From contig JAJEGJ010000035.1 in NCBI GenBank assembly GCA_022819905.1, forward strand, positions 1 through 64,000: DNA of 64,000 nucleotides, written 5' to 3'. The notes under the pieces were generated by a model. It did no database searches. It was given only the letters and a program-made list of their open reading frames with translations, and was not told the origin of the DNA. This DNA is from Alphaproteobacteria bacterium. Its GTDB lineage: Bacteria > Pseudomonadota > Alphaproteobacteria > TMED109. Positions 305 to 17,984 of this stretch are shown here, piece by piece. Each line of letters opens with the position of its first letter. The stretch's first letter is position 1. Position numbers and translations under genes: made by a program.

Positions 305-2611
305 CTAGCGCCCCCCCCGATCAACGAGGCGTTCTACATCACCGGTATCGCCGTCTACTCGGATTTCCTCTCCGTCTCCAATGGCGTCGCATACTCCAAG
401 GAGCCCAACGACTGCCGGTAATCCGTACTCACGCGCCACAATTGCCGCGTGCGAGAGCCGGCTACCGTTCTCGACAACTACCGCTGCGACCCGACCGAAA
501 AGGATCGTCCAAGCAGGATTGGTATTCGGAGCCACAAGCACATCGCCGTGCCTCACCTTCGCGAAGTCAGCGATGCCACGTACCACGCTGGCTGGGCCCG
601 TCGCGCTTCCTGGACTCGCACCCAGCCCTGTGAACAATTGCTGGCTCGGACTACACACCTCGCCCAGGAATCCAGCCGGCAACCAACTGCGTTGCCGCTT
701 CCACCGAAGAGCATCCCGACGCGCCTCCACGTTAGGGAACTCCATCCCTTGTACTAGCCCTTTTTGCAGCTCCTCCAAAGTCAGCAGGTCTGCTGTCTCG
801 TTCGGCGGAAGCAATCTCTGCGCCTGCAGGCGTCGTGTACATTCGCTGATGGCATCTCGCAAGACTGGTAAAGGGAGGTTCGCCAGCGATTTTGAGTCCT
901 CCCGAACAACTCTCAGTTCGCGGAGCCGATCAATACACCTATCTACTGCCTCCCATCGATCATCCTTGACCTTCTCTAGAAGTCTCTGCCGCTGCGTTCT
1001 AGCACGTTCCACCCCAACTGCCGTGAGATTACCATCGCGGTTCCCTCCCTCATTAGACTTCGCGCCCGTCTCCACGTAAGCGATCAACTCATCCTTCGCA
1101 CTGTGCGCGACCGTCCCATTAATTTCCATATGGCCGAAGCGGTCGATGAACCGATCAAACTCGCCCATCCACTCCGAGCGGTGTGTCGCAGACGCAGACA
1201 TATGCACCAGCTCTTCCAATGCGATGTTCATCCGTACAGTCTCGTGCTCGACACCTGCACAGAGATCGTCAAGGATCTCCTCTGATACCTCGTCCAAACC
1301 CACAAGGCGAGCTAACTCCTGGGCGCACGATTTCTCGCCATCGATCCACTCGAACATCCCGAGAAGCCGTGTCGACGTCATGTAGCCATGTAACCTGCCT
1401 GTCTCCTCTACAATCTCTAGCAAGGTGGCGGTGTCGACCTCCTGCAACACGCCGGTCCGTTCCTTTAGCGACCCCACTTCCGACCGCCAAATTGGAAGTG
1501 CTGCTTCCACCGTCGATCGTTTTTCATGCCTAGAGGGAGGTCGCAGTTCCGTTCCCGGGTCCACAGCAACGGGGACTTCGTGGAATCGAACCACCGCCGC
1601 ATCGACCGATGGCGCCCCTTCCCCCTCGTCCAACATCGACAAACTGGCTTGCCAGATCTCCCGAGTGAAGAGCCCATAGTCCAGCGGCGTCACCGTTGCT
1701 GGGCAGTACTCATCCCACAAGTGAAAGTACCGACGCTGCAACTCCGTCCACCCTCCTGCAGGGCGGCCGGGCAGGACCCATGGCGGGGGACCGTCACGGG
1801 ACGCGTCGCCGCTTGGCTGGGTCGTGATCGGGCGCGCCTGCAGTATGTGGACCTTTCCCCCCTTGGTTACTGCCCATTCCACGTCCTGAGGTAGGCTGAA
1901 ATGTTGCTCGATCCGCTGAACCATTCCGGCGAGCTCCCGCCAAACGGAGTGCGACGGCGAAGACTCGCCCAGATGATCGATTCGAAGCTCCCTGCCGTCC
2001 AAATCCAACCAGCATCGGCCTGCAATTCGCTCGCCTCCAACAAGTTCCTCACCCAGCCCATCGATCCACTCTGCGAACAGGATATCCGACGACTCGGTTG
2101 CCGGATCACTCGAGAACACGACGCCTGCAAACTCGGCGTCTACCATCCTCTGCACGACTACCGCCATTTGGTTAGGGCACACGCCTCGCGCAGACGGCGT
2201 AGTCTTCCTCGCCGTATAGGCCGACGCATGGCCCGTGTAAGCCGACTTCCAACACTCCCGAACTGCCCCCATCAAGTCTTCGGCCGAATCAACGTTCAAC
2301 ACGCTGTGAAACTGCCCTGCGAAAGATGCGTCAGCCGAATCTTCCAACAGGGCCGACGAACGCACTGCCGCCTTGGAACTGCCGATGTACTTCTCCCATG
2401 CTGAACGAAGCTCGAGTGCAAGTTGCGCGCTTATTGCATGAGGATCACTGTCCAGCTTCCCTATCTCTTCCTGCGCTTCCGCCGCGACAACAAACCCGCC
2501 GGGGACCGGCAGTCCCAACGACAGCATTTCCGCTAAAGCATTGCTTTTACCGCCGAAACGAGAGACGCCGACTGCTTGGGCGAGTGGGACTACTAGCGAC
2601 ACTGTTCCCAA
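305..2611 (-). CDS. Rifampicin-phosphotransferase-like / PEP-synthase-like phosphotransferase, probable RiPP modification enzyme
   Basis: 768 residues. The N-terminal ATP-grasp domain (about 1-265) is of PPDK_N type: GGKSNAL at 20-26, RSSALLED at 84-91, GVVFSSDP near 163-170, and VEWAV...LQARPITT near 244-264. A central domain follows (about 275-665, containing VTPLDYG). The C-terminal swivelling phosphohistidine domain (about 680-765) has SRLSHAAIVAREYGLPAVV, with His721 as the predicted phospho-carrier. There is no PEP/pyruvate-binding TIM barrel. This order (ATP-grasp, substrate domain, His domain at the end) is that of rifampicin phosphotransferase, which moves the beta-phosphate of ATP to a hydroxyl group, rather than of true PEP synthase. 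The gene is last in a four-gene operon and overlaps the preceding gene. The TTG start at 2611 is uncertain; GTG at 2602 is an alternative. Inferred role: phosphorylating the precursor peptide, perhaps at a hydroxyl installed by the HExxH enzyme. A small-molecule substrate cannot be excluded. Confidence 0.75.
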   Translation of the reverse strand: MGTVSLVVPLAQAVGVSRFGGKSNALAEMLSLGLPVPGGFVVAAEAQEEIGKLDSDPHAISAQLALELRSAWEKYIGSSKAAVRSSALLEDSADASFAGQFHSVLNVDSAEDLMGAVRECWKSAYTGHASAYTARKTTPSARGVCPNQMAVVVQRMVDAEFAGVVFSSDPATESSDILFAEWIDGLGEELVGGERIAGRCWLDLDGRELRIDHLGESSPSHSVWRELAGMVQRIEQHFSLPQDVEWAVTKGGKVHILQARPITTQPSGDASRDGPPPWVLPGRPAGGWTELQRRYFHLWDEYCPATVTPLDYGLFTREIWQASLSMLDEGEGAPSVDAAVVRFHEVPVAVDPGTELRPPSRHEKRSTVEAALPIWRSEVGSLKERTGVLQEVDTATLLEIVEETGRLHGYMTSTRLLGMFEWIDGEKSCAQELARLVGLDEVSEEILDDLCAGVEHETVRMNIALEELVHMSASATHRSEWMGEFDRFIDRFGHMEINGTVAHSAKDELIAYVETGAKSNEGGNRDGNLTAVGVERARTQRQRLLEKVKDDRWEAVDRCIDRLRELRVVREDSKSLANLPLPVLRDAISECTRRLQAQRLLPPNETADLLTLEELQKGLVQGMEFPNVEARRDALRWKRQRSWLPAGFLGEVCSPSQQLFTGLGASPGSATGPASVVRGIADFAKVRHGDVLVAPNTNPAWTILFGRVAAVVVENGSRLSHAAIVAREYGLPAVVGLLGVCDAIGDGEEIRVDGDTGDVERLVDRGGR

Positions 2612-3172: not shown

Positions 3173-4822
3173 CTACTGCTGGTAGCCCGCCAGCGCTAAC
3201 TGCAGCTGCTCGCTATGTCGGCCGTAGTGATTGACCGTCTCCTCCAGATGATCCAACAACGTCTTCGTTCGCCGAGTCCGATACGTCTTCAGGAAGGCCT
3301 CCTGCGGCGCTGCACGCAGCGTTGACGACATGAATCGACGAAGCCCGCAGAGCACCGCCACGCTCTCCGCAATGCTGGCCCCGCTCTTGGCTTCGCTCAT
3401 CCAACGATCCCCATCGTAGTGTGGAAACGCCGGTCCCTTGGCTTCTCCTAGCACGCTTAATGACCTATAAGCAGCAACGACTTCGCTATGAACAAGGTGG
3501 TCGACAATCTGCGCCACATCGGTTTCCGTCCTGTCAGCAGCAGCCTCTTGTATCGCCACCGAGGCGTACCCTGACTGATCCAGCGTGTTCAACTGACCCT
3601 CTATCTCCTGCGTTTCACGGTCGTAGCAGTCAAGCAACAAACGCCTGAAAACCGTGACGTCGTCCTCGTGTCCGAACGTCGTCAACACGTCAGTCAGCCA
3701 GGTCACGAGCTGCCTCCCATCTGGACCAAGATCAGCTGAATCTGACCTAAGCTTCGCGCCCAGATAAGTCGCCCGATCTAGCGATCTGGTTCGCTCCTTA
3801 TGAAACGAGGGCGGGGGGGCGCCGAACCGGTGACACTCAACATTTGTTGCAACGGCCATTTCGAAGAACAACGCCAAATGAACGTATACATGGAATGCGA
3901 ACAGTGCCCGGTCCGTGGACCAGTTCGCCGAATTCCACGAGAAATGCCGATTCCAAGGTGCGCGAATCAAGCGTGCATTTTCACTGTCGAACCCTTCTCT
4001 AAACACGGATCTCGTCAGAACAAGATCCGACAACTTCTTGTGTGCGGCCTCGTGGAGCAGAGCTTCAGCCGCATGCCATGCCGTCCTTAGCGGGCTCGGC
4101 GACAGGAATACAGTGGAGGGTATTGCGTGCGTACTTACGTTTTGACAGACATCCGAGCGCGTCGGCTTGCTCCACTGCGATCGGTCACTTGTGTCCAGAA
4201 TAGCTACCAGACGAACGTGCTCGATCAACGACGACCATAGTTCGGGCGCTAACTGTGCCAGAATCTCCTCGCCTTGCTTCAATCGCTCTCGAAGCTCCGA
4301 CGATGGCTCCCTAAGTACAACTCTTCCTGAGGAGACGCCATCCGCAATCTCTCGATCAAAGAGCGCTTGAAAGTAGCTGTCCATCGCCCCGGGTGCCCCG
4401 TTGGGGTCCCAAACGTCGAAGTCTGTGCGACCGTGTTCCCCAGAGCGAATAGGCGTAGACGAGATGAGTGTCGCCGTACCCGTGCCAGCCAGTTGGTTCT
4501 GAGCCAGCGCCAAGAAAACCGCACGGTCTCCATCACTAACTTGTGATCGCCCTTCCTTGATGCCGAACAGCGCATTGTTGATGGCCCGCCGGACCACTGG
4601 CCCTGATAGACCACTCGACCTGATGCCTGATTCGCCACTCATGGCGTCTAGCGCTCTTGCCGCACTCACCTCGTACTTGGCTACTACATCTATCCCACGG
4701 GAATAATAGAGTTCTGCACGGCGTCGGATGTTTGAGCTATCCCCGAACACGGGATGGGACGCAAGCTCACTCTCAACTGTCCTTTGCACACCCGGTACCA
4801 TCTCAACCAACCCAGGACGCAA
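3173..4822 (-). CDS. HExxH-motif protein, putative Fe(II)/2-oxoglutarate-dependent peptide beta-hydroxylase
   Basis: 549 residues. LLHEAAHKKL places the metal-binding HExxH at His257-Glu258-His261. About 50 residues later come RAPWNRHF and AFHVYVHLALFFE, where His311 (or His315) is a candidate third ligand. This pattern (HExxH-K-L, then PW, then an HxYVxLAxFFE helix) is that of the family first named HEXXH motif domain and now annotated as aKG-HExxH-type peptide beta-hydroxylases, which act in RiPP pathways. Despite the motif it is not expected to be a protease. The N-terminal 200 residues and the C-terminal helical region (about 350-549) are unassigned. It lies 79 bp downstream of the precursor gene and 4 bp before the next gene. 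The start is uncertain: TTG at 4822, or ATG at 4801 (residue 8). Confidence 0.75.
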   Translation of the reverse strand: MRPGLVEMVPGVQRTVESELASHPVFGDSSNIRRRAELYYSRGIDVVAKYEVSAARALDAMSGESGIRSSGLSGPVVRRAINNALFGIKEGRSQVSDGDRAVFLALAQNQLAGTGTATLISSTPIRSGEHGRTDFDVWDPNGAPGAMDSYFQALFDREIADGVSSGRVVLREPSSELRERLKQGEEILAQLAPELWSSLIEHVRLVAILDTSDRSQWSKPTRSDVCQNVSTHAIPSTVFLSPSPLRTAWHAAEALLHEAAHKKLSDLVLTRSVFREGFDSENARLIRAPWNRHFSWNSANWSTDRALFAFHVYVHLALFFEMAVATNVECHRFGAPPPSFHKERTRSLDRATYLGAKLRSDSADLGPDGRQLVTWLTDVLTTFGHEDDVTVFRRLLLDCYDRETQEIEGQLNTLDQSGYASVAIQEAAADRTETDVAQIVDHLVHSEVVAAYRSLSVLGEAKGPAFPHYDGDRWMSEAKSGASIAESVAVLCGLRRFMSSTLRAAPQEAFLKTYRTRRTKTLLDHLEETVNHYGRHSEQLQLALAGYQQ

Positions 4823-4878: not shown

Positions 4879-4903
4879 CGGGCAAGTCAGCCCGCTTAGG
4901 GCT
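4879..4903 (-). promoter_or_regulatory. Two mutually exclusive hairpins just after the precursor gene
   Basis: In the mRNA sense, AGCCC at the precursor stop can pair with GGGCT (4899-4903 with 4889-4893, 5 bp). The alternative is CGGGC pairing with GCCCG (4890-4894 with 4879-4883, 5 bp, 6-nt loop). The two stems share 4890-4893, so only one can form. An A-run, not a U-run, follows, so this is not a classic terminator for the operon. It may be a processing or stability element that raises precursor levels over enzyme levels. The stems are short and chance formation is possible. Confidence 0.3.
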
Positions 4904-5144
4904 AACCGCGCGGACCTCCTCTCGGCGGCTTCTCAGTTGCAGGCGCCATGTGATGATGTAACCCAAGGCGCGCATTTCCGACCAGCTTCAATGGGTCCAC
5001 GTCGGGCGCGTCCTCTACACCGTCATCACCATCCGGATCCGTTTCGCTTGTTGCCGGTGCCATGTGGTGGTGCAACGCCAACCGCGCGTTGCCGACTAGC
5101 TTCAGGGGGTCGATGTCTTCATCGAGCGTAACGTGCTTCGTCAT
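4902..5144 (-). CDS. RiPP precursor peptide with two 21-residue histidine-rich core repeats
   Basis: 80 residues. A short leader MTKHVTLDEDI is followed by core 1 (residues 12-32), an acidic spacer (33-49), core 2 (50-70) and a basic tail EKPPRGGPRG. Each core reads DPLKLVGNARL, then Ala (core 1) or Gly (core 2), then LHHHMAPAT. The ATG at 5144 is chosen over an in-frame upstream TTG at 5201 because GGAG lies 8 nt before the ATG and the TTG is part of a TTGACA promoter box. There is no signal peptide, no cysteine and no serine or threonine cluster of the lanthipeptide kind. It is the first gene of the operon, ahead of the HExxH enzyme, the DUF6875-like protein and the phosphotransferase. It is too short and repetitive for an enzyme, and it keeps its amino acid sequence while codons diverge, which supports a real peptide substrate. 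Family not recognised. Confidence 0.8.
   Translation of the reverse strand: MTKHVTLDEDIDPLKLVGNARLALHHHMAPATSETDPDGDDGVEDAPDVDPLKLVGNARLGLHHHMAPATEKPPRGGPRG
4935..5111 (-). repeat. Duplicated core-peptide coding repeat (2 x 63 bp)
   Basis: The repeats occupy 5049-5111 (core 1) and 4935-4997 (core 2). Codon by codon, 13 of 21 positions use different synonymous codons, one differs in amino acid (GCG Ala against GGG Gly), and seven are identical. The DNA has diverged far more than the peptide, so this is an old duplication under strong selection on the product rather than a recent tandem copy. Confidence 0.9.
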
Positions 5145-5173: not shown

Positions 5174-5201
5174 AGTATGACGTTTCAATTTGCTTTGTCA
5201 A
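5174..5201 (-). promoter_or_regulatory. Sigma70-type promoter of the RiPP-like operon
   Basis: On the minus strand a perfect -35 box TTGACA (5196-5201) is followed after 16 bp by CATACT (5174-5179, four of six matches to TATAAT). Transcription would start near 5167, giving a leader of roughly two dozen bases that contains the GGAG site. The region between the two boxes is AT-rich compared with the rest of the window. Confidence 0.6.
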
Positions 5202-5615: not shown

Positions 5616-6479
5616 TCATCCGTCGCCGTGGCCGCCGTTGTACCCGCTGGGCCGAGCCGGACGCCAGCCTGCCAGGTGATCGTCCTGCGGCCGGAAGATC
5701 TCTACGCCCAGCGGATGGCAGATGGCGCGGCCACTCGAATGACCGACGCCGCAATCGCCACCGGGGCAGGTGGATAGCGCGGCCACCAGGTCGATCTCCG
5801 CAAACAGCTCGATGTAATCGCCGGCCCGGGCGGGGCTTGCCTTCATGAAGTACTGGTTGGTGTCGCGCCGGAAGCCGGTACACATGAACAGGTTCACCAC
5901 GTCGTGCACGAGCATCTCTGCCTCGCCCAGCGAGAGGCCCCGCGCAGCGGCCAGCGCTCGAGTCAGGTTCGAATGACAGCAGTAGTGGTAGTCCGCGCGC
6001 GTCAGGAGATGGTTGGTGTAGGGATCGCAGCGCGTCCCGATGACGTCGTGGACGCCTGCTCCGAACTCGTCAATCCCATACCAATCGAGGGTGTCGCGGG
6101 TAATCGTTGCCATCGGGCGCAGCCACGGCAGGTTGCTCCACAGGCGATCGCCGGTGCTGACGTGCGTGGCGTGGAGCGCTCGCGTCTTCCCGCTGTAGAA
6201 GCGTTCCGACAGGTCATCCGCGTTCCACAGGTTCAAGTCGCCCACCTGCGGGCCATCCACGGTGGTGATGCGGAAAAGGTGACCGGCCGGCACGCGGAAC
6301 GAGCGCGCATCTCGAGGCGGCACGGTCAGCGCGTGCACCAAGGCCATACCGCTGCGAACGGTTTCGTAGAACGTCCGGTCGTAGGGCGGCAGACGGTCCA
6401 GCGAATAGACCGTCACGGGCCTTACGGCACGCCGCGCAGCTGCATCCGCCGGCTCGGGATGTTGCGCGGATTGCATCAT
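5616..6479 (-). CDS. DUF1989 (urea carboxylase-associated) family protein
   Basis: 287 residues. Family features seen include VPAGHLFRITTVDGPQVGDLNLWNADD (split around residues 64-90), SGKTRALHATHVSTGDRLWSN, and a Cys/His-rich stretch with CCHSNL and NLFMCTGF towards the C-terminal half. DUF1989 proteins are often encoded beside urea carboxylase, aminomethyltransferase-like or transporter genes; their reaction is not settled. It follows a five-gene peptide-type ABC importer on the same strand after a gap of 228 bp, so it may act on the imported compound. The start ATG at 6479 is immediately followed by a second Met. Confidence 0.75.
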   Translation of the reverse strand: MMQSAQHPEPADAAARRAVRPVTVYSLDRLPPYDRTFYETVRSGMALVHALTVPPRDARSFRVPAGHLFRITTVDGPQVGDLNLWNADDLSERFYSGKTRALHATHVSTGDRLWSNLPWLRPMATITRDTLDWYGIDEFGAGVHDVIGTRCDPYTNHLLTRADYHYCCHSNLTRALAAARGLSLGEAEMLVHDVVNLFMCTGFRRDTNQYFMKASPARAGDYIELFAEIDLVAALSTCPGGDCGVGHSSGRAICHPLGVEIFRPQDDHLAGWRPARPSGYNGGHGDG

Positions 6480-6707
6480 GGCTTGTTCCTTCCAGCGGGG
6501 TGTTCACGGGTGTAGCCCGACCCTGAGAACCAACGATTCGCTTTGTCACTGTCGGTCCGCGACCGTACCTTCCACCTGCACGCCCGAAGCCGTCGAAGGT
6601 GTGCCGGCAGCCCGGACAGCCGGCGTCGGGGCAGAGGGTGCCTTGCCGGTCTCCAAGTATGTGCGATCACGCTGTCCGGTACCGATGCCAGACCAGCATG
6701 CCCCGCT

Positions 6708-7496
6708 TCAGAATTCCGATGCAGCGGCCCGGTCGTAGCCCCGAGAAGCCCGGAGCAAATGCCGTGAATACGGGTGCTGCGGCGCCGCGGTCCGGAGCGC
6801 CGCCACGTCGAGCGTCTCGACGATCTCGCCGGCGCGCATCACGACCAGCGCCTCGGCCATGTGGCTGACCACGGCGAGGTCGTGGCTCACCAGCACGAAG
6901 GTAAGCGTTCGCTCGCGTCGAAGACGCTGCAGCAAGTTCAGGATTTCCGCCTGCACCGAGACGTCCAGGGCCGAGGTCGGCTCGTCGAGCAACACGACGT
7001 CCGGTTCGATGATCAGCGCGCGGGCGATGGCGACGCGCTGGCGTTGCCCGCCCGAGAGCTGGTGCGGGTAACGGAATCGGAACGAGGCATCGAGACCCAC
7101 GCCGGCGAGCGCCTCGTCGATCCGGCTGTCGATCGAATCCAGGCCGTGGACCCGGGCCGGCTCGCCGAGGATCCGGTCAACGGTATGGCGCGGGTGCAGC
7201 GAGCCGTACGGATCCTGGAACACCATCTGCATCCGTCGACGCAGCGCGCGCGGGCGAATGGCCCCCAGCGATTCGCCGTGCATTCGCATCCGCCCGCGGA
7301 CCTGCGCGGTGGGCGGCAGCACCCCGGCCAGCGCCCGCAGGACGGTGGTCTTCCCCGAACCGGATTCGCCAACCAGTCCGAAGCTGCCGCCCGCCTCCAC
7401 CGAGAAACCGGCGTTCCGCACCGCCCGGAACGCCCGCCTCCCCCGGCCGAACGCAACCTGCAGGCCGGTGACCTCGACCGACACCGCGGGGTTCAT
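6708..7496 (-). CDS. Peptide-type ABC transporter ATP-binding protein (DppF/OppF-like)
   Basis: 262 residues. Walker A GESGSGKTT near 38-46, signature LSGGQRQRVAIARAL, Walker B VVLLDEPTSALD, and a switch His in LVSHDLAVV. The PYSRHLL stretch near the C-terminus is typical of the oligopeptide_ABC_C region. It powers import together with the companion ATPase and two permeases. The gene overlaps the upstream ATPase by 4 bp (ATGA) and is the last transporter gene of the operon. Confidence 0.9.
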   Translation of the reverse strand: MNPAVSVEVTGLQVAFGRGRRAFRAVRNAGFSVEAGGSFGLVGESGSGKTTVLRALAGVLPPTAQVRGRMRMHGESLGAIRPRALRRRMQMVFQDPYGSLHPRHTVDRILGEPARVHGLDSIDSRIDEALAGVGLDASFRFRYPHQLSGGQRQRVAIARALIIEPDVVLLDEPTSALDVSVQAEILNLLQRLRRERTLTFVLVSHDLAVVSHMAEALVVMRAGEIVETLDVAALRTAAPQHPYSRHLLRASRGYDRAAASEF

Positions 7497-8338
7497 CGGG
7501 CCCAGGCCGGATCACGGTGCAGGGTGGGCAGGTCGGCACCATCGCCGTCCACCCGCGGCTGACAGGCGAGGAGGCCCCGCGTGTACGGATGCCGCGCCCC
7601 GTGCAGCTCGGCGGCCCCAAGGGTTTCCACGACCCGGCCCGCGTACATCACGAGGACCCGGTCACAGAACGAAGCCACCAGGTTCAGGTCGTGACTGATG
7701 AAGATCAGCGCAGCCCCCCGGCGTGCGAGCATGTCGTCGAGGAGCGCCAGCACCTGCAGCTGGACCGTGACATCGAGGGCCGAGGTCGGCTCGTCGGCGA
7801 TGATGAGGTCGGGCTCGGGCACCATCATCATCGCGATCATGACCCGCTGGCCCATGCCGCCCGATATCTCGTGCGGCCACGCATCGAACACGTACCGCGG
7901 CTCCCGAATCCGCACCGCCTCCAGCATGGCGAGCGCCCGGTCACGGGCCTCGCGCCGGGATACCCCGGCGTGCACGCGAAAGGCCTCGACGATCTGCTCG
8001 CCGACCGTCATGACCGGGTTCAGCGAGAACTTGGGATCCTGCAGGATCATCGAGATCCGCCGGCCGCGGAGCGCATGCCGCTCCGCTTCGCCCGCGCGCA
8101 GCAGGTCCACGTCGTCGAACGAGAGCTGCCGGGCAGACATGCGTCCGTTACGGGCCAGGAGCCCGAGCAGGGCGCGGCCGGTTTGCGATTTTCCCGACCC
8201 GGACTCGCCGACGATTCCCAGTTTTTCCCGGCCGAGCGTGAAGCTCACGTCCCGGACCGCTGCCACGGCGCCGTGCGGCGTGTCAAACGTCACGTTCAGC
8301 CCGTCGACGATCAGCAGCGGGTCGCGGCGCTCCACCAC
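7493..8338 (-). CDS. Peptide-type ABC transporter ATP-binding protein (DppD/OppD-like)
   Basis: 281 residues. Walker A GESGSGKSQ, the expected QDPKFSLNP element, signature ISGGMGQRVMIAMMM, Walker B LIIADEPTSALD, and FISHDLNLV. The C-terminal HPYTRGLLACQP is the family extension of DppD/OppD. The signature is GGMGQR rather than the more common GGMRQR. It starts 3 bp after the permease stop and overlaps the next ATPase gene by 4 bp. The substrate cannot be told from the ATPase. Confidence 0.9.
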   Translation of the reverse strand: MVERRDPLLIVDGLNVTFDTPHGAVAAVRDVSFTLGREKLGIVGESGSGKSQTGRALLGLLARNGRMSARQLSFDDVDLLRAGEAERHALRGRRISMILQDPKFSLNPVMTVGEQIVEAFRVHAGVSRREARDRALAMLEAVRIREPRYVFDAWPHEISGGMGQRVMIAMMMVPEPDLIIADEPTSALDVTVQLQVLALLDDMLARRGAALIFISHDLNLVASFCDRVLVMYAGRVVETLGAAELHGARHPYTRGLLACQPRVDGDGADLPTLHRDPAWAR

Positions 8339-8341
8339 CGT

Positions 8342-9241
8342 CTAGTCCCTGCTCTTCGGGTCCAGCACGTCACGGAGCCCATCGCCCAGGAGGTTGAACC
8401 CGAGACTGACCACCAGGATCGCGATGCCGGGAAACGCGGGCACCCACCATTGATCCAGCAGGTACTCGCGCCCGAGCGCAATCATGGCTCCCCACTCGGG
8501 GGTCGGCGGCTGCGCCCCGAGGCCGAGAAAGCCCAGACCGGCGGCCGTCAGGATGATCCCCGCCATGTCGAGCGTCAGGCGCACGATGACCGAGGAAACG
8601 CACATCGGCGCCACGTGGCCCGCGATGATTCGCAGGTGCGGGATGCCCTGCGAGCGGGCAGCGAGGATGAAGTCGCTCCGGCGAAGCGTGAGCGCCTCGG
8701 CCCGGGCGATGCGGGCGTAGGGCGACCAGCTAGTGACCGCGATGGCCAGCACTGCGTTCTCGAGCCCGGGTCCGAGCGCGGCGACAAAGGCAAGCGCCAG
8801 GATCAGCCGCGGGAACGCGAGAAAGACATCGGTCAGCCGCATCAGGGCGCTGTCGACCCAGCCGCCGACGTAACCCGCCACGACACCGATGGCGAGGCCG
8901 ATCGGCACGACGATGACCGAGACCAGCCCCACGATGTAGAGCGTGATCCGGGACCCCCACATGACCCGGTCGAAGATATCGCGGCCGAGTTCGTCGGTGC
9001 CGAACCAGTGGGCCGACCCGGGCGCGTGGAGCCGATCGCCGAGGTCGGGCGTGACGCCGGCCGATGCCGTGATCCACGGGGCGAGCAGCGCGCCGGCAAC
9101 CAGCGTCGCGACGATCGCCAGACCGGCGACGGCGCTGCCGTTCCTGCGGAACACCAGCCAGGCAAGAAAGAAGCGCTGACACTGTGCCTGCCGCCGCGAT
9201 TGCGGGATGTCGGTCAGGAGCCAGGCGCGAACGGCGCTCAT
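8342..9241 (-). CDS. Peptide-type ABC transporter permease (DppC/OppC-like)
   Basis: 299 residues from the ATG at 9241, which overlaps the stop of the upstream permease as ATGA. A longer upstream frame is only a shadow of that gene. The N-terminal OppC_N-like segment (RRNGSAVAGLAIV) is followed by about six membrane segments; HWFGTDELGRDIFDRV is the hallmark DppC motif. The EAA loop is EALTLRRSDFILAARSQG. An inner-membrane channel subunit that pairs with the DppB-like protein. Confidence 0.9.
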   Translation of the reverse strand: MSAVRAWLLTDIPQSRRQAQCQRFFLAWLVFRRNGSAVAGLAIVATLVAGALLAPWITASAGVTPDLGDRLHAPGSAHWFGTDELGRDIFDRVMWGSRITLYIVGLVSVIVVPIGLAIGVVAGYVGGWVDSALMRLTDVFLAFPRLILALAFVAALGPGLENAVLAIAVTSWSPYARIARAEALTLRRSDFILAARSQGIPHLRIIAGHVAPMCVSSVIVRLTLDMAGIILTAAGLGFLGLGAQPPTPEWGAMIALGREYLLDQWWVPAFPGIAILVVSLGFNLLGDGLRDVLDPKSRD

Positions 9242-10305
9242 CGCGCCCTCGGATCCACGAGGCGGTAGAGCAGGTCGGAGCCCATGTTGATCGCAACGAA
9301 GCAGATTCCCACGACGATGGTGCCGCCGAGCACCGCATTCATGTCGTTGTTGAAGAGCGACCTGGTGATGTACTGCCCGATGCCCGGCCAGGCGAAGACC
9401 GTCTCCGTGAGCACCGAGCCCTCGAGCAGGGAAGCGTAGGTGAGACCCACGATCGTGATCAGCTGCACCAGCACGTTCCGGAAGGCGTGGCGCCAGATCA
9501 CGGCGCCCTCCGGCACCCCCTTGACCCGCGCCGTGAGGATGTACTCCTGTCCCAGTTGCTCCAGCATGAAATGACGGGTCATGCGAGCGAGGTACGCGAA
9601 CGAGTGGATGCCGAGGATGGCCGCGGGCAGAACGAGATGCCCGATCGCGTTGCGGAAGATGTCCCATTCACGGGCGAGGGCGGAATCCACCAGGATCAGG
9701 CCCGTCACGGGTTCCACCATGCCTTCATAGAAGATGTCGATGCGGCCGGGTCCGGCCACCCAGCCCAGCTTCGCGTAGAACACGAAGAGCGCCAGCATGC
9801 CCAGCCAGAACACGGGCACGGAATACCCGAACAGCCCGACGATGCGCACCAGATGGTCGGCCCACCGACCCTGCCGGACCGCCGCCAGCACGCCCAGCGG
9901 CACGCCGGCGAAGACACCGAGCAGCGTCGCGACGGTGGCAAGTTCCAGCGTGGCGGGGAAGAACCGCAGCAGGTCGTCGATCACCGGCTGCGCCGTCATG
10001 ATCGACACCCCGAGGTCGCCCACGAAGAGCTGACCGAGGTAACGCAGATACTGCACCGGCAGCGGCTGGTCGAGGCCGAGCTCCCGGTAGACCGCGTCGT
10101 ACACGTCCTGGTGGGCGCGATCGCCGACGATGGCCAGCACCGGGTCGGCCGGCATGACCCGGGCGATCACGAACGTCACGGCGGTGAGACCGACAAATGT
10201 CAGGACAAGGGACAGCGCCGTGCCGGCGATTCGGCGCGGCACGTGTCCGAGGAGTGAGCTCCGACCCTCCTGCAGCTGGCTGCCGATCATCGCCTCACGC
10301 CTCAC
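9238..10305 (-). CDS. Peptide-type ABC transporter permease (DppB/OppB-like)
   Basis: 355 residues with about six transmembrane segments. The N-terminal region has the DppB pattern (LGLDQPLPVQYLRYLGQLFVGDLG near 78-101). The EAA loop reads EYILTARVKGVPEGAVIWRHA, and EGSVLTETVFAWPGIG is a conserved late motif. ATG at 10305 or the Met at residue 6 could be the start. The gene follows the substrate-binding protein by 21 bp. Confidence 0.9.
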   Translation of the reverse strand: MRREAMIGSQLQEGRSSLLGHVPRRIAGTALSLVLTFVGLTAVTFVIARVMPADPVLAIVGDRAHQDVYDAVYRELGLDQPLPVQYLRYLGQLFVGDLGVSIMTAQPVIDDLLRFFPATLELATVATLLGVFAGVPLGVLAAVRQGRWADHLVRIVGLFGYSVPVFWLGMLALFVFYAKLGWVAGPGRIDIFYEGMVEPVTGLILVDSALAREWDIFRNAIGHLVLPAAILGIHSFAYLARMTRHFMLEQLGQEYILTARVKGVPEGAVIWRHAFRNVLVQLITIVGLTYASLLEGSVLTETVFAWPGIGQYITRSLFNNDMNAVLGGTIVVGICFVAINMGSDLLYRLVDPRAR

Positions 10306-10326
10306 GCGGCCCCCGTGGGTCCCCGG

Positions 10327-11916
10327 CTACTTGGTGACGTTCCGGTAGTAGACGTGGTCGAAATTCACGCCCGACATGAAGCCCTCGACACGCCGGCGGC
10401 GCACGACCTGCTCGCTCTGCTGAAACATGATGGCGTACGGCCCTTCGGTCTGCAGGCGCTTCTGGAGTTCCAGGTACATCGCTTCGCGCGCGTCAAGGTC
10501 CCGCGTGTCGCGGGCCTCGATCGTCCGCTCGTTGATCGCCTCGGACGCCCACGCGTTTCGCCAGGCGAGCACACCTGCGAGCATGGCTTCCGGCCGGTTG
10601 TCTGGGTTGTGCGCGAAGGCGTCCGCGTTGGAATGGGGGTCCATGTAGTCCGGTGACCAGCGGGCGACGATCAGTTCGTGCTTTCGTGCTCGGTACCGGG
10701 GCCAGAGCGTCTTGCCGTCCTGCATGACGATCCGCGCGTCGATCCCGGCCTGGGCGAAGGTTGCCTGAATCGACTGCGCGATCTGCGGAAACGGCGAGCT
10801 GGTGAGCGTGTCGATCCGTATCTCGAACGGTCCGAGGCCTGCCTGACCCAGCAGGGATCTCGCCTTCTCGATGTCGAGCGCGTACGGCGTTGCCGTGTAG
10901 CTGGCCCAGAGGCCGGCCGGCCAGAACGCCTGGTGCACCGAGAACTGGCCGGCCAGGAACGAGTCCGCCATGCCCTGGTAATCGATCGCGTGTCGCAGCG
11001 CCTGGATCACGGCCGGATGGCCGAGGACCGGATGCGACGCGTTGGCCGCCAGATACACGATCGCGCCCTTTGGATAGCTGTCGACCGCGAGCTCGGCATG
11101 ACCCGCCAGCGCCCGGATCTGGTCGGGCGTGAGGTTGCGGGCCATGTCGACGTCGCCCCGCTCCAGCAGCAGGCGCTGCGCCGACGGCTCGGGCACGTGG
11201 CGCAGGAAGACACGCCGCATCGCGGGCGCACCGCGCCGATACTCGGCATTTGCCTCGAGCGCAATGAACTCGTTCGCCTTCCAGCGCCCGAGCCAGAATG
11301 CGCCGGAGCCGGCGCTGTGCGACCGCAGCCAGCCCTGGCCCAGGTCGCCGTCGGTCTCGTGCGCCAGCACGCGTTCCTTGTCGATCACCGAGGCCACGCC
11401 GGCCGAAAGCGCGTTCAGGATCAGGCCTGGTGAAAGCCCCGCGGTCACGGTGATGCGCACGTGCGACCCGTCGACGACCTCGACCAGATCCCCGACGTTC
11501 TCGGCGTTCCAGCCGAATTGCGTGAAGATGAAGGCGGGGGTCTTGTTGAGCTTCACGACCCGCTCGAGCGAGAACTCGACATCCTCCGGACGCACCGGGT
11601 TGCCCGAGTGAAAGCGGAGGCCGTCCCGGATCCGGAACACGATCGTCTCCCCGTCGGCTTCGATCGCATAGCTTTCGGCAACCCCGCCGGTCAGCTCCCG
11701 CGGGTCTTCGGGCTCGAACATCATCAGGCGGTCGTACACGTTGGCGACGATTTCACCCGCCGTGAATTCGAAGACTTCGGCCGGGTCAAGCGTGATGACG
11801 TCGCCGATATCCTTGGCCATGACGAAGATGTTGTCCGGCGGATCGGCAAGGGCACTGCCGTCTTGGAGCGCCCACACGCCGCACAGGAGCAGGACCGATC
11901 GGACGATGCGGCGCAT
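10327..11916 (-). CDS. Peptide-type ABC transporter substrate-binding protein (SBP family 5)
   Basis: 529 residues. The ATG at 11916 is chosen because it begins a clear signal peptide (MRRIVRSVLLLCGVWALQ, then ALADP) and has GGAG about 9 nt upstream; the 99 codons upstream in frame are GC-rich noise. SBP_bac_5 features include ITLDPAEVFEF, GGVAESYAIEADG, FRIRDGLRFHSGNPVRPEDV near 110-130, and LRHAIDYQGMAD. First gene of the operon with dppB/C/D/F-like genes. No lipobox is evident, so it is probably a soluble periplasmic receptor. The ligand could be a dipeptide, oligopeptide, nickel chelate or amino acid derivative. Confidence 0.88.
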   Translation of the reverse strand: MRRIVRSVLLLCGVWALQDGSALADPPDNIFVMAKDIGDVITLDPAEVFEFTAGEIVANVYDRLMMFEPEDPRELTGGVAESYAIEADGETIVFRIRDGLRFHSGNPVRPEDVEFSLERVVKLNKTPAFIFTQFGWNAENVGDLVEVVDGSHVRITVTAGLSPGLILNALSAGVASVIDKERVLAHETDGDLGQGWLRSHSAGSGAFWLGRWKANEFIALEANAEYRRGAPAMRRVFLRHVPEPSAQRLLLERGDVDMARNLTPDQIRALAGHAELAVDSYPKGAIVYLAANASHPVLGHPAVIQALRHAIDYQGMADSFLAGQFSVHQAFWPAGLWASYTATPYALDIEKARSLLGQAGLGPFEIRIDTLTSSPFPQIAQSIQATFAQAGIDARIVMQDGKTLWPRYRARKHELIVARWSPDYMDPHSNADAFAHNPDNRPEAMLAGVLAWRNAWASEAINERTIEARDTRDLDAREAMYLELQKRLQTEGPYAIMFQQSEQVVRRRRVEGFMSGVNFDHVYYRNVTK

Positions 11917-12164
11917 GAGGGTGTTCTCCCGCAGGGGTCGCCGCCCGGGGCAGCCGGCGCACCGTCGCGGCCGTGCGGGGCCGGCGCCGATTCGACCGCC
12001 GGCAACGGATGGCAGTCGGCCGGAGACAGTACCGCAGAACGGTCCGTTCGTCGGCCGGGACGCCACCCCGCGTGCTTGCCCCGGCGACACCGGGGGGCTA
12101 TAGACACCATCACGCGGAGCATGGGCTGAGCACAGCAGGCCCGCCCATCCTGGAGCCCTGATCC

Positions 12165-12917
12165 ATGTCCAGACAGCGCCGTCGTCTGGTCTACGAGGGC
12201 AAGGCCAAGGCACTGTTCGAAGGCCCTGAACCCGGCACGCTCGTCCAGCATTTCAAGGACGACGCCACGGCGTTCAACAACAAGAAACGCGGCACCATCA
12301 GCGGCAAGGGCGTCATCAACAACCGCATCTCGGCCCACCTGATGATGCGGCTTGGCGAGATGGACATCCCGAACCATTTTCTCCGGCCGCTGAACATGCG
12401 CGAACAACTGGTGCGCGAAGTCGAGATCATTCCCGTCGAAGTGGTGGTTCGGAACGTCGCGGCCGGCAGCTTGAGCAAGCGCCTGGACATCAAGGAAGGC
12501 ACCCCCCTGCCCCGGCCGCTGATCGAGTGGTACTTCAAGAACGACGAGCTCAACGACCCGCTGGTGCTGGACGAGCACATCCTGGCCTTTGGCTGGGCCG
12601 CCGAAGACGAGCTCGACGAGATGTTCGGCTATGCACTGCGCATCAACGACTATCTCTCCGGCCTGTTCCACGCCATCAGCATCCGTCTCATCGACACCAA
12701 GTTCGAGTTCGGACGCCATTTCAGCGACGAGGGCATGCGGATCCTGCTGGCCGACGAGATCAGCCCGGACACCTCCCGCCTCTGGGATCTGGAAACCGAC
12801 GACAAGCTGGACAAGGACCGCTTTCGCCGCGATCTCGGGAAGATCGAGGAGGCCTACCAGGAGGTCGCGCGCCGCCTAGGCGTGCTGCCCAAGTCCGACG
12901 GCAGCGCCGGTTCGTAG
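12165..12917 (+). CDS. purC: SAICAR synthetase (PurC)
   Basis: 250 residues. It ligates aspartate to CAIR in IMP synthesis, using ATP. Signatures: [12 protein letters not shown] (8-19), [11 protein letters not shown] (96-106), LIDTKFEFG (175-183) and [12 protein letters not shown] (197-208). It begins a tight plus-strand run: purS follows after 10 bp, then purQ and purL with overlapping starts. It diverges from the peptide-transporter operon across about 250 bp. Confidence 0.97.
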
Positions 12918-16897: not shown

Positions 16898-16935
16898 TTG
16901 CCAATAATTGTCGTAATTGACATTAAAGTTGGCAA
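16898..16935. promoter_or_regulatory. Inverted repeat in front of the nucleotidyltransferase-like gene
   Basis: TTGCCAA (16898-16904) and TTGGCAA (16929-16935) are exact reverse complements, ending two bases before the ATG at 16938. Inside are AATTGTC and AATTGAC (16906-16912, 16915-16921). The stretch is AT-rich for this genome. It could be an operator or an mRNA hairpin covering the start. Confidence 0.4.
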
Positions 16936-16937
16936 AC

Positions 16938-17984
16938 ATGAGTGAAATCATACAGTTGAACTATGAGAGCCTCCGGGATGCCGTGGATGTCCGGGATCGG
17001 TTTGATCTGTACCGGGACGCGCGCCGGGATGCGCGTCACAGCTACGGCGGATCGATGAAATTCGAACGACGGGGAAACGCCGAGTACCTCATTCGCCGGC
17101 CCCACGGAAGCTCTACGAGAAAGTCCTGCGGTCGTCGCACTCCCGAAACGGAAGAAACGCTGCGGAAATTCCTGGCTGGAAAAGCCGAGGTTCAGGACCG
17201 GCTCGCCGCGCTCCGTCAGCAGCTTGATGACCGCGCTCGGATCCTCCGGGCCCGCGGCCTGGGGCGGGTTCCGTTACTGACGGCCAGGATCATGCGAAAA
17301 CTGGAGGACCTGAACTGGCTCGGGACCTCCCTGACCGTTCTGGGGACCAACGCACTGTTTGCCTACGAGGCCAAAGCGGGGGTGCGGATCGAAGCGGGTC
17401 TGTTGGCGACGAGCGATGTGGACGTACTCTACGACGTACGGCGACGTCTGGACCTTTCCGGAGAGGTTCGTGAAACGGGTCTCGTCGGAGCGTTGCGATC
17501 CGTTGACCGATCCTTCCGGAAAACACCGAACAGGCCCTTCACAGCGGCCAACAGGGATGGATACATGGTCGACCTCCTAGAGCCTTTCGATCATGGAAGG
17601 ATCATGCGCGAAGGGGGGGGCCGGCTGTCGGAGCATCCAGACGACCTTATCGCCACAACGACCGAAAGCAGCCGATGGCTGCTGAACACCCCGAAATTCG
17701 AAGCCACAGCGTTCGATGAAGTCGGCCTGCCGGTCCGGATCGTCACCATTGATCCAAGGGTTTTCGCCCTGCAGAAACAGTGGATCGTGGAAAACGACGC
17801 CACCCGCGATCCGCTCAAACGAACCCGTGACGTGGAACAGGCGCGGATCGCTGCCATGATCGTAACGCGGCATCTCGGGTTGTCCTTCGATGATCCGGCG
17901 CTGTCCGGACTACCGGGATCGTTCCGCGAACTGTCGGACCGGTGGACCGATGTTCCATCAGAAGATCTGACGGACCAGTGGTAG
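16938..17984 (+). CDS. Nucleotidyltransferase-fold protein (NTP_transf_8-like)
   Basis: 348 residues from the ATG at 16938 (an in-frame TTG at 16917 lies within the inverted repeat). The core has VLGTNALFAYE (GTNA at 136-139) followed by TSDVDVLYDVRR with Asp160, Asp162 and Asp166. This resembles the Gx(S/T)...DxD catalytic pattern of the polymerase-beta-like nucleotidyltransferases, in particular the family with a GTNA motif. The N-terminal region (about 20-110) is charged and helical with an RHSYGGSMKFE stretch. It stands alone between a terminator-like hairpin and a convergent gene. Such orphans are often accessory and sometimes belong to defence or toxin-antitoxin systems; nothing here proves either. 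Confident that it is a gene, less so about the subfamily. Confidence 0.65.
   Translation: MSEIIQLNYESLRDAVDVRDRFDLYRDARRDARHSYGGSMKFERRGNAEYLIRRPHGSSTRKSCGRRTPETEETLRKFLAGKAEVQDRLAALRQQLDDRARILRARGLGRVPLLTARIMRKLEDLNWLGTSLTVLGTNALFAYEAKAGVRIEAGLLATSDVDVLYDVRRRLDLSGEVRETGLVGALRSVDRSFRKTPNRPFTAANRDGYMVDLLEPFDHGRIMREGGGRLSEHPDDLIATTTESSRWLLNTPKFEATAFDEVGLPVRIVTIDPRVFALQKQWIVENDATRDPLKRTRDVEQARIAAMIVTRHLGLSFDDPALSGLPGSFRELSDRWTDVPSEDLTDQW

Follow-up and report, generated by a model that had tools for sequence, protein, structure and literature searches.

An enzyme of a known kind is placed here in a new setting: judged from its sequence, an RPH-type dikinase is encoded inside a peptide operon. 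The four genes are read from the minus strand at the beginning of the 64,000-nucleotide stretch of DNA analysed (the window), in the order peptide, HExxH hydroxylase, DUF6875-like protein and dikinase (Table 1). In our best reading, to which we assign a probability of about 0.45, the dikinase would serve as a maturation kinase for a RiPP-like peptide, acting after the hydroxylase. That its acceptor is the peptide or a peptide-derived product, taking maturation and immunity together, has somewhat better than even odds. More tentatively, an RPH-type dikinase may have been recruited to phosphorylate peptide hydroxyls installed by the aKG-HExxH oxygenase, and perhaps also by a P422-like one, yielding a final phosphopeptide or a leaving group.

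Table 1. Coordinates of the operon and of associated features in the window
Feature	Position	Strand	Basis or remark
RPH-type dikinase gene (ATP-grasp, middle domain, C-terminal phosphohistidine swivel)	305..2602	-	Pfam and NCBIfam, alignment, residue mapping, start context
DUF6875-like protein, possible heme oxygenase ('P422'-like), 191 aa	2593..3168	-	weak Pfam match and profile test
aKG-HExxH-type peptide beta-hydroxylase (predicted) with C-terminal DinB_2 domain, 542 aa	3173..4801	-	ATG start; TTG 4822 possible
Precursor-like peptide, 80 aa, two 21-aa core repeats DPLKLVGNARL[A/G]LHHHMAPAT	4902..5144	-	ATG 5144, GGAG upstream
Core repeat 1	5049..5111	-	
Core repeat 2	4935..4997	-	
Sigma-70-like promoter match TTGACA-16-CATACT, just upstream of peptide gene	5174..5201	-	10 of 12 positions
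Repeat at contig end, common to ends of contigs C30, C57 and C20	1..145	.	probably insertion-sequence end

The open reading frame at 305-2611 comprises 768 aa and matches PPDK_N (E 1.3e-50) and PEP-utilizers (E 1.6e-22) in Pfam, with an ATP-grasp domain followed by a middle domain of ~385 aa and the C-terminal swivel domain; no PEP/pyruvate TIM barrel was found in it by the Pfam domain search. A likelier start than TTG 2611 is GTG 2602, where the coding sequence overlaps the last bases of the upstream DUF6875-like gene; it gives 765 aa, so that the His721 of the first-pass annotation becomes His718. This residue aligns with the catalytic His825 of Listeria RPH. The architecture put forward in that annotation (ATP-grasp, middle domain, C-terminal swivel histidine, no TIM barrel) is left intact, with Pfam and the RPH alignment in agreement, and from either start the gene reads as an intact three-domain "small-molecule dikinase". 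A separate PPDK-like gene is located elsewhere in the same genome.

The catalytic residues and rifampicin contacts of RPH, an enzyme that phosphorylates and inactivates rifampicin, have been named previously, with Arg666 and Glu667 being required for the second transfer, onto the drug (PMC4844700). The alignment comprised, besides the dikinase, Listeria RPH (its sequence read from a contig that is catalogued as a Listeria phage), an annotated rph of Streptomyces, and three relatives, one from Nonomuraea and two from haloarchaea. Lys22, Arg117, Glu297, Gln309, Arg311, Arg666, Glu667, Lys670 and His825 (numbering of Listeria RPH throughout) are identical in the dikinase, Gln309 and Arg311 being residues that we take to belong to the catalytic set as well, and the sole change among the mapped catalytic residues is the conservative replacement of Thr136 by Ser. 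Retention of the acceptor-site Arg-Glu-x-x-Lys together with the swivel His argues for hydroxyl-phosphotransfer chemistry, as had been predicted. Among the rifampicin contacts, Gln336 is exchanged for Asp, Gln337 for Glu and Tyr351 for Phe, while P356, A357, M359, V368 and L387 fall within a deletion. As the catalytic residues are intact and the rifampicin contacts lost, the protein has the appearance of a functional dikinase whose acceptor site is altered, and very probably it is one that employs an acceptor other than rifampicin. Identity to Listeria RPH is 32.7% for the ATP-grasp domain, 41.6% for the swivel domain and 17.5% for the middle domain, which is ~54 residues shorter. A profile of the other five proteins recovered the middle domain with an E of 3.3e-5, the best among 2000 shuffles reaching 0.28, and by this comparison the domain is homologous to the acceptor domains of the RPH family. 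An AlphaFold model from four alignment rows (pLDDT 46) was too poor past the ATP-grasp domain to judge the acceptor pocket.

Every curated NCBIfam equivalog cut-off checked was missed by a wide margin: the dikinase reached 208 of 999 bits for RPH, 218 of 740 for PEP synthase, 85 of 843 for PPDK, 227 of 1300 for PigC and 226 of 1350 for RedH. An identity as true RPH was dropped because of the lost rifampicin contacts, and one as PEP synthase because of the absent barrel. Both had been raised in the first-pass annotation as findings that would speak against its reading; a rifampicin-binding middle domain is not seen, with its contacts changed or deleted at low identity, and a PEP synthase is excluded by the architecture. 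PEP synthase and PPDK do share the ATP-grasp and swivel domains, but differ from the dikinase, which is without the TIM barrel and carries the swivel at its C-terminus. With RPH (PDB 5FBS-5FBU) it has in common the domain order, the missing barrel, the ATP-grasp residues, the catalytic His and Arg-Glu-x-x-Lys, whereas the middle domain and the drug contacts diverge. The phenol dikinases HpeHI, CreHI and PpsAB (PMC12167813), likened here by description, use the same ATP-to-AMP swivel-His chemistry on a hydroxyl with an RPH-type acceptor domain; they are however catabolic and made of two proteins, in contrast to the single chain encoded in the peptide operon.

The peptide is laid out as MTKHVTLDEDI-DPLKLVGNARLALHHHMAPAT-SETDPDGDDGVEDAPDV-DPLKLVGNARLGLHHHMAPAT-EKPPRGGPRG. 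Between its two core repeats we count 15 nucleotide differences, representing 13 synonymous codon changes and one amino-acid change, and none of 200,000 random 15-change versions of the core altered as few as one residue or less. The predominance of synonymous changes indicates strong purifying selection, and provides strong evidence, at the level of sequence, that the core is translated and constrained. The terminal Thr is the only native hydroxyl side chain within the core, and any other phosphate site would thus need prior hydroxylation.

The gene that follows encodes a predicted aKG-HExxH peptide beta-hydroxylase, which scores 47.1 bits with TIGR04267 (cut-off 40) and has HEAAH and HVYVH conserved relative to Streptomyces homologues. 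A short, constrained precursor gene adjoins a peptide-modifying enzyme, as expected of a RiPP cluster. Enzymes of the aKG-HExxH type place beta-hydroxyls on RiPP precursors, on Asp and His, Gln, or Pro (PMC12636437, PMC13060819). ChlBH, PflC/PosC and BpmH resemble the present protein in the TIGR04267 domain, with HExxH and a downstream HxxxH, and in the adjacent short precursor-like gene; they differ in the additional C-terminal DinB_2 domain found here, and known aKG-HExxH hydroxylases are partnered with rSAM, MNIO or lanthipeptide enzymes rather than a dikinase. This DinB_2/YfiT-like domain occupies 3173-3526 of the window (minus strand), contains an HxxxH motif (HYGRHSEQL), is detected on its own with an E of 9.3e-8, and is not seen in the Streptomyces homologues aligned with the hydroxylase. 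It might provide a second metal site or act in thiol transfer. Its HYGRHSE may resemble the iron motif known from ergothioneine and ovothiol synthases, a likeness that is only a lead, the best matches of the domain being YfiT-type proteins instead.

The third protein is a lead for a heme oxygenase. It matches DUF6875, a family reported to comprise heme-binding oxygenases of tryptophan ('cytochrome P422', PMC13307353), with an E of 2.2e-4 and 21.8 bits, below the Pfam cut-off of 24.5. A profile built from four clear DUF6875 hits, together with two weak look-alikes that the search for these hits also returned, gave 0.0036, the best among 1000 shuffles reaching 6.5, and a DUF6875-only profile gave a weak match, 0.23 against 2.5 for the best shuffle. 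The C-terminal motif is similar to that of ZigI (LMMAALHP versus LMLGQFFP), a DUF6875/'cytochrome P422' protein (PMC13307353), from which the present protein differs in falling under the Pfam cut-off and in lying in a peptide operon. A single-sequence AlphaFold model (pLDDT 38) was too poor to use.

The operon is compact, with genes that overlap or stand 4-100 nt apart: the DUF6875-like gene begins 4 nt past the stop of the HExxH enzyme and is itself overlapped by the dikinase gene. GC3 amounts to 0.62-0.66 in all four genes versus 0.81-0.88 in the flanking genes, and owing to this matching foreign composition they look to have been acquired together, horizontally. The promoter match in front of the peptide gene is not significant alone (1 site found versus 2.0 expected by chance). 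Among the products of the four genes we recognised no protease, no transporter and no RiPP recognition domain, a point against the reading as peptide maturation. A DUF1989 gene and dipeptide-type ABC transporter genes upstream (5616-12213) have the composition native to the genome and seem to form a unit of their own. In a second lower-GC stretch (0.60 at 16-18 kb), a 355-aa ORF on the plus strand (16917-17984) resembles a nucleotidyltransferase-type protein and is possibly another acquired gene.

At the other side, position 1 of the window is base 1 of the contig. The repeat located there ends four contigs of the same genome (the others are L090-L092), and on C57 it adjoins an ORF reading as an IS110-type transposase. 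Insertion-sequence copies would thus account for the assembly breaks, with one copy just downstream of the operon. That the operon starts with the peptide, as claimed from the first inspection, was confirmed; that the dikinase is its last gene is no more than probable, since the assembly stops there, in the repeat.

Taken together, a sequence of steps can be proposed. The aKG-HExxH enzyme would hydroxylate residues of the core, where there is precedent for His, Asp and Pro as targets and Asn is extrapolated from Gln, and the DUF6875-like protein would possibly add a second oxidation. The dikinase would then transfer the beta-phosphate of ATP to its swivel His, from which it would be passed to a hydroxyl of the modified peptide, be it a newly introduced beta-hydroxyl or that of the conserved Thr. 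We infer the order of the steps, the peptide as acceptor, and the fate of the phosphate, kept or serving as leaving group for dehydration. The operon alone suggests the peptide in this role, through its overlapping or 4-nt-spaced genes and a preceding hydroxylase able to supply hydroxyls. Phosphorylation of a ribosomal peptide is known from lasso-peptide kinases, which however have a kinase fold unrelated to the dikinase and convert ATP to ADP.

A further point against the maturation kinase is that small molecules are the substrates of those dikinase-family members that are known. HpeHI, CreHI, PpsAB and RPH work on phenols or antibiotics (PMC12167813, PMC4844700), and the nearest relative seen, that of Nonomuraea, is flanked by ORFs reading as an MFS exporter on one side and a TetR regulator on the other, congruent with an acceptor that has nothing to do with the peptide (a phenol or foreign antibiotic, for instance) and an operon shared by chance or for resistance. 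The coding overlap with the DUF6875-like gene, in an operon that begins with a peptide, and the foreign GC3 that matches across all four genes nonetheless make such an acceptor unlikely. About as doubtful is a PigC- or RedH-style activation, where a hydroxyl, carbonyl or carboxylate of the peptide is phosphorylated transiently, leading to dehydration, ligation or cyclisation. The PigC and RedH models do score as high as any superfamily model (227 and 226 bits compared with 208 for RPH), and hydroxylation followed by phosphorylation would set up an elimination, but their cut-offs are far from reached, hence conferring no specific link, and no lyase was recognised in the operon.

The acceptor could also be the finished peptide, if toxic, which the dikinase would phosphorylate and inactivate inside the producer for self-resistance. 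RPH sets the precedent with rifampicin (PMC4844700), the kinase gene is found at the operon end and no other immunity gene was recognised in the operon; toxicity of the product is however purely assumed, and a resistance enzyme would look the same in sequence as a maturation kinase. We regard self-resistance as the least likely of these alternatives, and retain the maturation kinase as the best reading. RPH-type dikinases form a large, mostly uncharacterised family, known for antibiotics and phenols, the chemistry of which would be widened by a peptide acceptor. RiPP engineering would in turn gain an ATP-to-AMP phosphorylation of post-translationally installed hydroxyls, and with four genes the operon is small enough for a direct laboratory test.

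Our literature search yielded no paper linking an RPH-like dikinase to a RiPP pathway, and no description of an oxidise-then-phosphorylate logic among the RiPP papers found. The operon was seen in one genome only, with no second operon of the same genes recovered, which also counts against the maturation kinase. The HExxH enzyme was not found in any of the 27 other genomes of the family searched and gave weak matches only in the phylum, while the dikinase search returned distant relatives only in the class. No dikinase was found near TIGR04267 hits in 18 regions (17 genomes, up to 20 kb each, from a 398-genome proteobacterial sample), nor a related HExxH enzyme in nine regions around the better dikinase matches of the class sample. 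At the HExxH loci of Streptomyces plasmids and Nonomuraea no dikinase was recognised, the surroundings being lanthipeptide-type or other. A precursor search of plasmids gave only matches with E of at least 1, nothing real. Scanning the genome collection for the core repeat, with short exact peptide patterns by which diverged relatives would be missed, returned a single locus (L012), rejected as a spurious reading frame on the strand opposite a P450 gene. In scans of viral contigs, no relative of the HExxH enzyme or precursor and only four dikinase loci were found, three of which read as ATP-grasp-only ORFs. In these three (L080:3833-4660, L081:4235-5068 and L082:3950-4660) the ORF ends after the ATP-grasp domain and a swivel match follows close behind, suggesting split dikinases carried by phages.
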